From positions 478,433-542,432 of the forward strand of contig CAJNOJ010000043.1 of NCBI GenBank assembly GCA_905250025.1: 64,000 bases of DNA, in the 5' to 3' direction. Source of the stretch: Adineta ricciae. Lineage: Eukaryota; Rotifera; Eurotatoria; Adinetida; Adinetidae. Below are positions 9,751-64,000 of this stretch, piece by piece. Below the pieces are notes generated by a model. It had not been told where the DNA came from. It saw only the letters and a list, made by a program, of their open reading frames with translations, and did no database searches. The position numbers and the translations under genes are program-made. The first letter of the stretch is position 1; each line of letters opens with the position of its first letter.

Positions 9751-11378
9751 TTACAGATAAAAGCAAAAGAATAACAAAGCTAGTACAATTATAACTGTCA
9801 TTTCCATACTAAAATAAAATCGACGAGGTGCATGGCCTGTTTCTGCAATTATCTTTCGTTCTTCGTGCAAACCTTTCAAACGCTGTGGACTATACACACC
9901 AAAATATTCACTTATCCAATTATTTGTGCGATACAAATTTATACCCATGTCATTCAAGTAGATTTCCATCGATGCTAGCCAATAGTATCGATAGTCATAC
10001 TCATTTCGACGAAAGATGCTTCGAACAAACAAACGGTTGGAGTTAATTTCTTCGTGCATCTGCTGTGCAGTTTGAGGCAGTCGAAGTCGTTTGAGAAAGT
10101 ATTCCGAAATCCAGTGGCTAGCAACTTCAGCTACCATCAAATTGCCTGCAGAGCCTGTAAAACCAATGAAAGCTATATTTGGTATGCCAACAGGCAGTAC
10201 ACGGCGATAGAGATTAAGTTCGGTATTATCAGCTGGGTGGGACAAGCCCAGCATCTCGACATGTTCGGGAGAAAAGAATGGAAAGCTTCGAATAAAGCCA
10301 GTTGCTAAAATGATCATGTCTGCCTGTAAATCTTCGCCTGAATTGAGACGAATCGTTGTTGCATCAACAATTTCTTTGATCGTATCGAGTTTTCCAATAA
10401 TACGGCCATTATGTTTTAGCGATAGAAAATCAGTTGGAATCATAGAGATATTTTCTTGACTACGGAATGAATGCTGTGGAATAAATACACCATCTTCTGT
10501 CAGGTCCGTTCCATGTATTGACATGATATCATTCGATATGATCTCAATCATGGTTGTGAATAGCTTGGGGTAATTTTTATGCAGTAAACGAAAGATTTTA
10601 CTGTATGAACCATTCGGCAGTGGAACAAAAGGAGTCGCAAAGATGCGTGTAAACAACATTCGTGCAGGCAGTAGATTATGAACGATGCGACGAGGAATCA
10701 TCCAGTGCGCTTTACGAAACACCATGTGACACGAACGAGCATGATGACCTGCAATCACAGCCATATCGGTTGCACATTTTCCCTGTCCGACTATCACAAC
10801 ACGTTTGTTTCTGACTTGATCATGCGACTTAACAGCAGATGGTGGCACAATTAGACCAGCAAACTTATTCTGGCCAGGATAGGTTGGCAGATGAGGATGA
10901 GAGTAGAGACCACTAGCAACAACAACTAAGTGAAATTCATGTGTTCGTTCTTCGCCATTCTCATTTTCAGTCTTAATAATCCACGGGGTGCTTTCATTTT
11001 TCAGATCTTCTTTTGATACTGAGAGAACACGTGTTCGAAAATGAATTCGATCAGTAATGTGAAACAGATCGGCATATTTTTGTAGATAGTTGTGAACATT
11101 TTGCCAAGGTGCAAATTCTAGAATTTTAAGGAGATGTATATTCAACCAAAATACTATCAATGTCTACCTTCCCCACTGAATAGATCAGAGAACTCAAAAG
11201 TTCCACCCGGCTGTTGACTATGTAAATTAGCGTATGCAGACTGTTCACACCAAATACCGCCTAATTCCTTTTGCTGATCAAAGAGAGTTACATCGAATCC
11301 GTCATCTAAAAGTGTCTTGGCACACACTAAACCGCTAGCACCTGCACCGACGATGGCTACTGTTCTCGTTCGTTTCAT
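9751..11378 (-). CDS. FMO-like flavin-dependent monooxygenase
   Basis: Two exons (11168-11378 and 9751-11117), joined through a 50-nt GT-AG intron, encode 525 residues, typical FMO length. The N-terminus has the FAD dinucleotide motif GAGASG (about residues 10-15) with ELGGIW following. The NADPH-binding motif is VVIVGQGKCATDMA (about 195-208), and ILATGF is the late FMO/BVMO signature. The classical FMO fingerprint FxGxxxHxxxY is not clean here (FAGLIVPPSAVKSH, with extra residues), which points to an FMO-superfamily branch rather than a vertebrate-type FMO. A C-terminal hydrophobic helix (MTVIIVLALLFFCFYL) would anchor it, as in microsomal FMOs, presumably in the ER. The likely reaction is NADPH- and O2-dependent oxygenation of soft nucleophiles. 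Confidence 0.9.
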
Positions 11379-60198: not shown

Positions 60199-63100
60199 TT
60201 AATTCTTAATTCTATGAGCTGGCACACCAGACCAATTGGTGTTAAACAAAAGTCGATCATTTTTCATAATTAACGTCCACGGAAATATTTGATTTTGTCC
60301 TTCTAATACTGTTCCAGGAAGTATCAGTGTATTACTCATGAGCACACTTGAATGATTAACAGTTACAGGTGCCCGTTTGGAGCGCCGATGTTCGGATGTG
60401 TGACACTAAAATTTGAAAAAAATCTTAGAAGAAATTTAACTATTCATGCGAAATATATTACTTCAATGTAAGCGCCAGTCTGTAAGCGTACATGGTTGCC
60501 AATGGTAGTCAAATAAGGATCAATAAGACATTTAATATCGGGTAAGATGACATCTCGTCCGATGCGAGCGCCCAAACCACGAAAAACATATACGAGATAT
60601 TGCGTACCGGATAGAAATGGAGCAATTAAGTTGTAAAAATCGTACAGACATGTATTAAAAATCTGTTGTAAAGTAGTGATAATGATAGAATACGTAGATT
60701 GTGACTGTTTCTTCGAAAGCCAAATGGAGTAACGGTAGATAGCACAGGAAAGAATAATATGAACGACTGGCGAAGCAAAAACTGGAAGTGATGAGTACAA
60801 AATGACGAGTAGTGATTTACTGACAAGGGCTCTAAGGCAACTAAGTAATATTGCTTTAATAGAGAACGTATTTGTCGATGATAATCTATTTTGAGTTGAG
60901 TTCGCGTCATCAGATAGCTTAAATGGCATTTCACGTGCTGGAATACCAAGCAATGTAGTGTTAGCGTTAATACTACTTGTTTCTTGAGTGACTAATGTTA
61001 GACTACCGACCATTGTGTTTGATGCGAGCCGAGCACCAGGCATGACTGTGCACCAGTTTGTCAGATTTGTACCTGCACCAAGATGTATTTTGTCAAGACG
61101 ACAGAAACCATATTTTGTTACATCGAAAGTAGCTAGCTTAGCTCCACCAAATGTTGTGACAGTACTTTTCGCTTCAAGTAAATCAGACGGAAAGTATAAA
61201 ATATGCCGAAAGTGGGCAAACATGACGTCCTCTTCAATTCGAGTGCCTAACCAACGTAAGATGACTGATGCAAAAGAGCTGTAATTTGGCAGCAAATCTA
61301 GTGAATGTTGAAATGATGTTATAATCAATTGGCGCAACCATATTTTTTGGACATAATGGAAGGAGTTCAGTGAATAGCATCCTGTTTTAGCACGCCCCAC
61401 AATGAACTTCAATAGAACTATGGCAGTGCAAAAACTTATCGATGCCCATATTAACCAGCTGAAAGCAATACAAACAGGTAGCGGTATTGGCAAAATACGA
61501 CAACCACAGTAGATGTAATAGCTCAGTAGAATAATTGAACTGTGAATGATAAGAAGTAGGAATAAACAAACGAATTGATGTATGGATTTTTTCAATGATA
61601 TCCCTTGATTTTTCAGGAATACATCATTATTCGTTGTTCGAGCAACACCTGAGACTGCTGACATTGGTTCTATGTAAGTGTTATTTTCGATTGTCGCACC
61701 ATAATAAAGTGTAGAACGCGTATTGATGCAACAGTGAGAACCAATACTGATCGACCGAAGTGTATAAGTCTTCTCTTCATATGACAAACTTGACAGTACA
61801 ACTTCGTCACCGATAAATGTAGAATCTCCTACTTCGATCAACCAAGGTGCATCGATTGATACTGTGTAAATATGTGCATTACGCCCCACTTTTGCACCGC
61901 ACAATCGGAGATACCAATTATAGAATGGTGTATCAGTTAAATGCCTTAACCAGTATGAGTTGTTAATCGACCACAAACTGTTCAAAAACCACCAACGATA
62001 GTAATACCACGAATACAATTTATCCTTTCGATCTATAACTTCACTACTGTGAACTAACAAACGTAGACAAACAATGTATGCCACGAGATGAAAAACAGGT
62101 ACGGACAGAAGAGTAACAAATGAATGAAACTGAAAAGCCAACCACATAGGGAAAAGCCACTGGCTTAGAAGCAATACGATACCTAGTAGTTCGATAATTA
62201 AACATGATATTGACCTGTCAGGGCTATCGGTTGATTGTTCAATTGTAGAAATAGCCACCGAAGTGTCGCTGGTATCGATTAACGGTTGAATTGCACATGC
62301 AAGCTGTCGAATGGATGGATTAGCAAACACAAGACCAACATCGATTTTTGTCGTTATTTCTTGCCGAAGGAAATACAGGGCGCGAATAACATCTAATGAT
62401 GTACCACCCATTTCTCCAAATGACATCGTAACATTTGGTAGCTCATTGTGGAAGGCTCGACTGAATATACTACGCAGCTGTAATTCCAGCGGCGTAAGTG
62501 GCGCTATTGCGGTGCTGTCGGCCTGTTTTAACATCGAAAATTCAGGTGATGGGAGTTGCTTTCGATCTACTTTTCCATTTGCATTCAGTGGCAGTTTATC
62601 CAGTATGATGAACATCGATGGCACCATATGTGACGGAAGATGAGACTGACAATGTTCACGCAGTTGTGTCTCACTCGTTTCACTGCTTTGTACATATGCA
62701 ACTAAATGATGTTCTCCCCATTTCGTCACAACACAAGCAGTAATAGTTGTATCGAGCAAACATCGTTCTATTTCTCCTAACTCGATGCGTTGGCCATGTA
62801 GTTTCACTTGAAAGTCTTTTCGACCGACATAATACAAAAGTCCTTTGCTGTCGATTCGAACAAGATCACCCGTTCGATAGTATGCTTCATTATCGATAGA
62901 TAGTAGCACACTAGACGTTAGGTCATCTCGATTCAAGTAGCCAGCGAAGACACCTGCACCCCCTATAAATAGTTCTCCCTCTGCACCATTGATAACCGGT
63001 TGCAACATATCATCCAAAACTATGGCTCGATAAGTAGGAAGCGGGCGTCCTATCGAAACACCATCGATTTCTGGGGTTATATTAACGACATGACCCGTAC

Positions 63101-64000
63101 AATCGATTGTGCACTCAGCAGGCCCATAAGTGTTCCAGATGCACACATTATTTGCCACACAGTTGCGCAACTTTTGCATAAACTGAATGGTACTATTATC
63201 TCCTGCAAAAATTCAGCAGATGTGTAGATCACAAACATGTGAATATACTTACCACCAATGTCCAGAGTACGTAAAGCTGGTAGAGCATTTTGATTTTTCT
63301 GTTCTAAAAGGTTCAACAGATTACCAACATATGCCGGAACACTTTGCATGTATGAAACTTGTTTTCCCTTGACTACCGTCACCACGTAATCCAAGTCCAT
63401 GTTTCCATGTGGATGTAACATCACGCTAGTACAACCAACGATCAATGCACCTAGTATTTCTTGAACATGAACATCGTACGAACAGCTTGCCATTTGCAAC
63501 ACAGTATCGTCCTTTGTAAACAAGTTCACTTGCACTAACGACTTAATGCATGCTACTACATTTCGATGTCGAACTCGAACCTAAACAACGAGATATAGGC
63601 ATGGTAGTGGATGTAGAATACTTGCTACATACCCCCTTTGGTATTCCAGTTGATCCACTGGTAAATACAACATATGCAATTTTGTCGCTATTAACTACCA
63701 TCGTCGATAGTGCATCTATGCCTACACTACCTTGTCCTATAGTCATCCTAAAGATGGTATCGATGTCAAATGATGCGACGCCATTTCCAATTCTCAATTT
63801 TGTTTCTTCATGAACAAGAAGAAGGCGACTTTCTGTCGTTTCAAAAAGGATATTTAAACGATCCAATGGATCTCGAGGCGACAGTGGACAGTACACACCA
63901 CCCACCATCTCGATCGCCATGATACCAATTACCTATAATCAACGACAATCGACAATACGAATCAACGCTCGTCATCTCAACTCAGCTTACCATCGACAAG
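60199..64000 (-). CDS. NRPS-like adenylation-PCP-membrane-LbH protein, Pls/PosA family; 5' end outside window
   Basis: Visible exons: 63991-64000, 63633-63932, 63253-63580, 60462-63202 and 60199-60405, separated by 50-60 nt GT-AG introns, giving 1,194 residues. Adenylation domain: GGVYCPLSPRDP, FTSGSTGIPKG (A3), ASCSYDVHVQE (A4), NTYGPAECTI (A5), YYRTGDLVRI (A7), DFQVKLHGQRIELGEIE (A8), LPLNANGKVDRKQL (A10 with catalytic Lys). Carrier domain: MSFGEMGGTSLDVIRAL with the phosphopantetheine Ser. Then several membrane helices (SCLIIELLGIVLLLSQWLF; LLLIIHSSIILLSYY; PVCIAFSWLIW) alternate with three left-handed beta-helix acyltransferase-like lobes (VGRNAHIYTVSIDAPW; IEEDVMFAHFRHI; and ILPDIKCLIDPYLTTIG), ending WSGVPAHRIKN. 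This is the A-T-TM-tandem-domain layout of epsilon-poly-L-lysine/poly-ornithine synthetases. There is no condensation or thioesterase domain in view. It is of bacterial type but with introns, so domesticated after transfer. Confidence 0.88.

Follow-up and report, generated by a model that had tools for sequence, protein, structure and literature searches.

The enzymes that synthesize epsilon-poly-L-lysine and delta-poly-L-ornithine, the Pls/PosA family (TIGR02353), consist of an adenylation (A) domain, a carrier (T) domain and a long terminal membrane domain. In the available text of the PosA paper, the terminal domain is modelled as three five-turn beta-helices on six helices, and it is stated that no structural information on this domain existed as of 2023 (PMC10522769). 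The same text gives DMEHNGTVSK as the substrate code of PosA and describes Glu221 as binding the side-chain amine and as conserved in all such enzymes, while noting that the acid may be placed elsewhere in other ornithine-activating nonribosomal peptide synthetase (NRPS) A domains. Bdelloid rotifers carry numerous nonribosomal peptide/polyketide synthase (NRP/PKS) genes, some of them induced by a fungal pathogen, according to the available part of Nowell et al. 2024 (PMC11258130), and the available part of an animal NRPS survey describes many bdelloid NRPSs (PMC10531068). Here we describe an NRPS gene at the end of a 64,000-nucleotide stretch of rotifer DNA (the window), which lies at the end of contig C43. 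The original prediction, made from the letters of the stretch, was that this gene may encode a single self-contained enzyme making a cationic homopolymer or amino-acyl compound. The analysis below suggests instead that it is the last part of a longer, peptide-building NRPS with a terminal domain related to that of Pls/PosA.

Structure of the window gene

The minus strand of positions 60199-64000 holds an intact frame for an A domain, a T domain and a terminal domain, in which four exons and the edge of a fifth are joined in frame; the four introns between them are all GT-AG and 50-58 bp long. Contig C43, with a length of 542432, stops at window position 64000, inside the A domain. The 5' part of the gene is beyond the contig, and the A motifs before A2 are off it. 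The exons in the window encode the A domain from motif A2 on, followed by the carrier domain, whose serine is present, and by about 650 residues of terminal domain (the tail). Pfam matches were AMP-binding, AMP-binding_C, PP-binding and Hexapep, and the A and T domains contain the core motifs that multimodular NRPSs have. The adenylation motifs, carrier serine and short introns of the original prediction were confirmed by Pfam and by the exon joins. A, T and tail occur together in one exon, whose 922-amino acid (aa) open frame is far beyond chance, since 20 mononucleotide shuffles of the window gave no frame longer than 160 aa. The protein does not end in a thioesterase (TE), reductase or terminal condensation (C) domain; Pfam and TIGR02353 place the Pls-like tail there instead. 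When window positions 61500-63932 were used as a query, no allelic copy with an intact 5' end was seen in the genome. The best-scoring other match was 69% identical over 1.3 kb (contig C548), and the matches of higher identity were all short, with 75% over 340 bases and at most 86% over 44.

The terminal membrane domain

Residues 400-913 of the long exon match TIGR02353 with 107.7 bits (E 5.3e-31), and the last exon, scanned apart from it, matches with 25.8 bits (E 3.1e-6). The hidden Markov model search that had been proposed as a check therefore gave a match, but one below the curated cut-off of 423.1 bits. In the genome-wide TIGR02353 search the long exon had an E value of 2.6e-25. At E 0.001 the control set was positive in 13 of its 14 genomes, and weak matches therefore mean little in this search; at E 1e-20 it was positive in 1 of 14. 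The tail can be aligned collinearly over its full length with the tails of the strict Pls/PosA-type genes of the same genome (described below), at 22% identity. These comparisons make it a distant relative of the terminal domain in Pls/PosA. The predicted homology of the two domains holds on both the score and the collinearity: the A and T domains of the window gene are joined to a membrane domain of three lobes, a homolog of the Pls/PosA terminal domain.

Hydropathy places the hydrophobic segments of the tail in three groups, which agrees with the membrane helices predicted. An AlphaFold model of the 594 terminal residues before the last intron was built from a 33-row alignment containing 32 bacterial tails (pLDDT, the predicted local distance difference test, 73; predicted template modelling score 0.74). 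It shows beta-helix lobes and helix pairs and agrees with the published model of the PosA terminal domain. Foldseek searches with this model gave hexapeptide acetyltransferases as the best matches, though these were modest (best E 2.6e-4, template modelling score on target 0.59), with one match at E 0.001 or better. The tail has three helix pairs and three beta-helix lobes, collinear with known tails. The beta-helix lobes foreseen in the original prediction are borne out by the model and by the Hexapep match; the model covers lobe 3 only in part, as this lobe is divided by an intron.

Conservation was counted over all 80 bacterial tails kept from the contig scan described below. Their lobe 3 carries T-H-x2-E-D-R-x2-K, with each named letter in 80/80. 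Across the window-type tails, H, E and R are kept in 12/12 and K in 11/12, and all four are present in the window itself. The T is replaced by C in 8/12 and the D by Q in 9/12. In lobe 2, a Glu found in 80/80 bacterial tails is kept in two of the 12. This pattern suggests that window-type tails retain one active site, in lobe 3.

Related loci in the genome

The search of the genome for TIGR02353-type tails listed 47 matches, and 12 loci of the window type were modelled, the window included. A C-domain match precedes the A domain in nine of the 11 other loci (C363, C644, C297, C145, C926, C368, C615, C548 and C247), and four of the 11 (C363, C644, C297 and C548) have a further A domain upstream. 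Pfam found PF00668 in upstream open reading frames (ORFs) of seven loci, and PF00668 matches also occur on the same seven contigs. At C548, the C domain and the start of the A domain share one exon. C644, C297 and C548 have an intact HHxxxDG motif in their terminal C domains, and the motif is also present in an upstream C domain of C363. From these paralogs we infer that one or more condensation modules lie upstream of the window A domain, and the idea of a single self-contained enzyme was not upheld.

The three internal window introns have the same place and phase in 7/7 paralogs compared; C548 has one more gap. Between the window and C548, the Nei-Gojobori (NG86) method gave 0.34 nonsynonymous (dN) and 1.61 synonymous (dS) changes per site, the latter near saturation, and a dN/dS of about 0.21, with divergence lowest at codon position 2. 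These values are signs that purifying selection may act on the A-T-tail gene.

Five genes in the same genome are of the strict Pls/PosA type and have the order A-T-tail: L023, L024, L025 and L027 on contigs C383 and C12, and L026 on C356. Four of these copies score 545.6-558 bits with TIGR02353. No C-domain match was found beside the strict genes on C383, C12 and C356 in the available DNA. A 49 bp gap between open frames in copy C12a is intron-like. These genes appear to be better candidates for cationic homopolymer synthesis than the window gene, and the claims of the original prediction fit them better.

Six thioesterase matches were found in the genome (two on C114 and one each on C514, C598, C181 and C512), none of them on a contig with a tail match. 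Because C114, C598 and C181 carry both condensation-domain and thioesterase matches, this genome seems to contain TE-ended NRPS lines as well. Tail-bearing NRPS ends were also observed twice in tandem on C247, C509 and C297 (L016, L011, L020/L028). A third, more distant tail type is present on C233 as two tandem copies of similar score (L017:1416-4525, L018:1471-6788); both have A and T domains, and their tails give only fragmentary matches to TIGR02353.

The adenylation domain

The part of the A domain that lies in the window spans 62511-63932. Substrate codes were read from columns anchored by motif, with position numbering after PheA. For the code count, 69 of the 80 bacterial rows had an A domain of sufficient length. 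The window code, positions 235 to 517, is DVQQDGTIDK, and that of C363 is DVQQDGLIDK. Position 239 is Gln in the window versus Glu in 69/69 bacterial Pls A domains read and in 3/3 readable strict bdelloid copies. The codes of the latter, DLEFNGSVAK or DMEFNGSVAK, are close to the published PosA code. The window A domain therefore has Gln in place of the Glu that binds the side-chain amine in Pls/PosA members, which counts against the cationic homopolymer. A basic substrate is judged unlikely rather than impossible for this domain, because other ornithine-activating domains may place the acid elsewhere.

A quick-search tree of 43 A domains, with strict_C383a left out, places the window A domain in a clade of 12 rows (Shimodaira-Hasegawa-like approximate likelihood ratio test, SH-aLRT, 100) together with other A domains of these NRPS lines, some terminal and four from upstream modules. 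This clade is apart from 28 bacterial and three strict bdelloid Pls A domains. In a PDB search, the best match of the window long exon was linear gramicidin synthase A, a score that sums two modules and includes T. Among chains with an A domain only, gramicidin synthetase 1 scored 129 bits and epsilon-poly-lysine synthase 96. With a strict A domain as the query, linear gramicidin synthase A again ranked first, with 377.7 bits for its two modules together and 200.9 bits for the higher-scoring module; the best single-domain match was the PosA A domain, with 275.7 bits. With these caveats, the PDB search appears to agree with the tree on the window A domain.

Phylogeny and searches for similar fusions

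In a tree of tails, a branch with an SH-aLRT of 100 separates the 12 window-type tails from 52 bacterial and four strict bdelloid tails, at a distance of about 3.5 changes per site. The strict bdelloid tails fall inside the bacterial diversity (support 99, with three Bacteroidota and one Beijerinckiaceae). A bacterial clade containing the window tail, which would have supported transfer, was thus not recovered. The alignment and tree left out C356 (stop in tail), C233a, C233b, C297dn and the second copies in C247 and C509. One Pls-like tail, L110, comes from a metagenome-assembled genome (MAG) named Euryarchaeota archaeon and stands beside an Acidobacteria sequence (support 90); transfer or a binning error is possible.

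A scan of genome contigs yielded 417 relatives of the tail, from which 80 were kept, each with a tail ORF. No close bacterial source of the window-type tail was found among the 417, and the kept 80 are 21-25% identical to it. No ORF with a C domain was found beside the 80 tails in the available flanking DNA, which extended at most 6 kb either way and was shorter where the contig was short, using a profile made of five rotifer C domains that had no bacterial positive control. In a Pfam scan of seven of the 80 tail proteins, all seven had A, T and hexapeptide repeats and none had PF00668. A survey of 1,468 genomes of five phyla, in which scoring was confined to the top 2 to 4 candidates of each genome and each set holds its own positive centre, gave no matching ORF above 1,499 aa; ORFs up to this length are too short for C-A-T-tail. 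Genomes with a match at 1e-20 numbered 3/292 in the phylum of a Nostocales genome, 15/296 in that of Streptomyces, 27/398 in that of Sphingomonas, 5/235 in that of a Myxococcales MAG and 4/247 in that of Taibaiella. Viral contigs gave 60 pattern matches and 0 relatives of the tail. Plasmids gave 21 records, the best with 20.9% identity over 94% of the query. In the 10 plasmid rows listed, four are annotated as Pls/PosA and one as an adenylation-domain protein, and five have no annotation there.

The main text of Nowell et al. 2024 (PMC11258130), as far as available, does not mention Pls, polylysine or hexapeptide, and that of the animal NRPS survey (PMC10531068), with the same limit, does not mention Pls or polylysine. 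The available text of the PosA paper reports homologs in 'Metazoa' from a network limited to 1100 to 1800 residues (PMC10522769), which would therefore cover the strict type but not the multimodular window-type lines. A fusion of an NRPS with a Pls-type tail was not named in titles or the openings of abstracts among the literature matches listed, and nothing was found under the model or family name of the tail.

Proposed mechanism and alternatives

The reading we favor, with some reserve, is that the gene at 60199-64000 is the 3' part of a multimodular NRPS, whose last domain is a Pls-related membrane acyltransferase that releases the chain or joins it repeatedly. The architecture, several modules with the Pls-related membrane domain last, is its firmer part and very probable. 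Active, amine-directed release by the tail could equally well prove right or wrong. The rotifer appears to have joined two kinds of enzyme, a peptide-building NRPS and a polymerase-type tail, which makes an unusual peptide, rather than a simple cationic polymer, the probable product. The upstream modules would build a peptide as a thioester on the carrier serine of the last module. The His-Glu-Arg-Lys site in lobe 3 would then act as a hexapeptide-fold acyltransferase, by which the membrane domain would move the peptidyl group from the carrier to an amine, either of a small molecule or of another peptide unit. In this way it would do at a membrane, with the chemistry of a Pls tail, the job of the thioesterase in other lines. 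It is a long shot that the tail links finished oligopeptides repeatedly, giving a nonribosomal polymer with a whole peptide as its repeat, perhaps passed through the membrane. If true, bdelloids would have combined two enzyme types into a new way of making a biopolymer.

Several observations weigh against the favored reading. The window's own condensation domain is not visible, as the contig ends in the A domain, and no C domain was found upstream at C110 and C509 in the available DNA. The C-domain match at C926 is a short weak piece, that at C615 is 2.5 kb off, and at C644 most of the terminal A domain is lost to an assembly gap. Neither the C ORF of C368 nor the terminal C domain of C363 showed HHxxxDG. 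The A-domain tree holds no NRPS modules from outside this genome. The tail tree (68 tails) is an unrooted quick search with long branches, in which C145 and C247 are long rows, and it drew a long-branch warning. The tail is also far from known ones, at 21-25% identity to the 80 bacterial tails. Since the GSPA stretch of lobe 1 is present in 0/12 window-type tails and the bacterial invariants of lobe 2 are mostly lost, the chemistry of the tail may be lost or changed. Lastly, the lobe-3 motif of the window, C-H-T-S-E-H-R-R-S-K, departs from most paralogs at less conserved sites.

These losses and the long branch of the window-type tails are what could be expected if the tail were a mere membrane anchor without catalysis, with release by hydrolysis or a separate enzyme. 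We consider this unlikely, although less so than the other alternatives, since the selective keeping of the lobe-3 site (H, E and R in 12/12, K in 11/12) despite 21-25% identity is unexpected for an anchor. A decaying pseudogene or functionless relic would suit a locus at a contig end, and some family members may indeed be decayed: the C145 tail and the first C509 copy were modelled with frameshifts. The full open frame, the four intact introns, the carrier serine, the low dN/dS against C548 (with dS near saturation) and the least divergence at codon position 2 make this very improbable for the window gene.

A true Pls/PosA-type synthetase with one module, A-T-tail only, that activates lysine, ornithine or a relative would have the same domain order and tail family as seen here, and no upstream domain is directly visible in contig C43. 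The Gln at position 239, the separate grouping of the A domain, the C-domain matches at most of the other loci and a TIGR02353 score far below the family cut-off make it improbable that the window gene is such an enzyme. Least probable is that the gene encodes an AASDH-like or ebony-like animal A-T protein, or that it comes from bacterial contamination. An A-T core is in general common to AASDH and ebony proteins, but the terminal domain of the window gene matches the Pls tail. Contamination is at odds with the short introns at paralog-conserved positions and with animal-type genes in the window, such as CCDC47 and the PHD/WSD protein.

The product of an NRPS is decided by chain release. If multimodular lines with a Pls-type end are confirmed, they would represent a release route unseen beside the 80 bacterial tails and in the 54 tail-bearing bacterial genomes examined. 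They would also be a natural setting in which to test whether the Pls terminal domain, which is poorly understood, takes peptides instead of single amino acids. The question bears on the products of many bdelloid NRPS genes, some of which are induced by a fungal pathogen, as the available part of that study describes (PMC11258130).

Locus features and host genome

Table 1. Features of the NRPS gene in the window
Feature	Position	Strand	Evidence
Last 10 bases of upstream exon (...L-S-M), cut by contig end	63991..64000	-	In-frame junction, place and phase as SLSM/VIG of paralogs (slash, junction)
Intron, 58 bp, GT-AG	63933..63990	-	Position common to 6/7 paralog models, those covering this junction
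Exon: A domain, motifs A2-A3 (TSGSTG)	63633..63932	-	PF00501 E 2.4e-12 on 63630-63932
Intron, 52 bp, GT-AG	63581..63632	-	Position common to 7/7 paralog models
Exon: A domain, motif A4 and part of substrate pocket (D235, V236, Q239, Q278, D299)	63253..63580	-	PF00501 E 2.4e-7 on 63305-63550
Intron, 50 bp, GT-AG	63203..63252	-	Position and phase common to 7/7 paralog models
Long exon: rest of A domain, carrier, terminal membrane domain to start of lobe 3	60462..63202	-	Pfam, NCBIfam, model, fold
Carrier (T) domain; carrier Ser codon 62397-62399 (GGTSLD)	62244..62507	-	PF00550 E 6.2e-5; domain map
Terminal Pls-like domain: lobe 1, lobe 2, start of lobe 3, helix pairs	60462..62219	-	TIGR02353 107.7 bits; alignments
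Intron, 56 bp, GT-AG, inside lobe 3	60406..60461	-	Position common to 7/7 paralog models
Last exon, to the stop: remaining part of lobe 3, including H-x2-E-x-R-x2-K (codons in 60376-60405)	60199..60405	-	TIGR02353 25.8 bits

The window also holds CCDC47, PHD/WSD and superoxide dismutase matches. AvGluR1, a protein of the bdelloid Adineta vaga, is the best solved relative of two glutamate receptors from the same genome (L120 and L122; 262 and 228 bits), and the next-best solved relatives score 122 and 97 bits. Because of the animal-type neighbors and the AvGluR1 matches, a bdelloid genome is likely and contamination unlikely. The rotifer-like genome and the intron-bearing gene of the original prediction are in keeping with these results. 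The genome contains 57 PF10613 matches, a count that includes exon pieces. The telomere repeat was rejected as a bdelloid marker: TGTGGG arrays are present, but a reversed control matches equally. A flavin-containing monooxygenase-like ORF lies on the same contig, 50 kb away from the NRPS gene (window 9754-11163; PF00743, E 1.2e-33).

Comparison with known systems

Like Pls/PosA enzymes, the window gene has a carrier followed by a long domain of helix pairs and beta-helices, shares the lobe-3 H-x2-E-x-R-x2-K and is collinear over the full length of the tail. It differs from them in the 21-25% identity and sub-cut-off score of its tail, the missing GSPA of lobe 1, an A domain that stands apart with Gln at 239, and paralogs with condensation domains and several modules. 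Because two of the tests that define the family came out negative, it is not classed as a Pls/PosA homopolymer synthetase. AASDH and ebony are defined by C-terminal domains of their own after A-T; these were not found in the window gene, whose tail is Pls-like. Canonical multimodular NRPSs with a terminal TE, of the linear gramicidin or tyrocidine type, have a similar A-T part and the C-A-T order seen in the window paralogs, whereas the window gene has a membrane-embedded Pls-like domain in place of a TE or reductase. The gene probably belongs to the same expanded set of bdelloid NRP/PKS genes as those of Nowell et al. 2024 (PMC11258130), although a Pls-type terminal domain is not described in the available part of that paper. 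Hexapeptide (left-handed beta-helix) acetyltransferases share the lobe fold and the Hexapep match with the window tail, which differs from them in having several lobes on one membrane chain that is fused to an NRPS.

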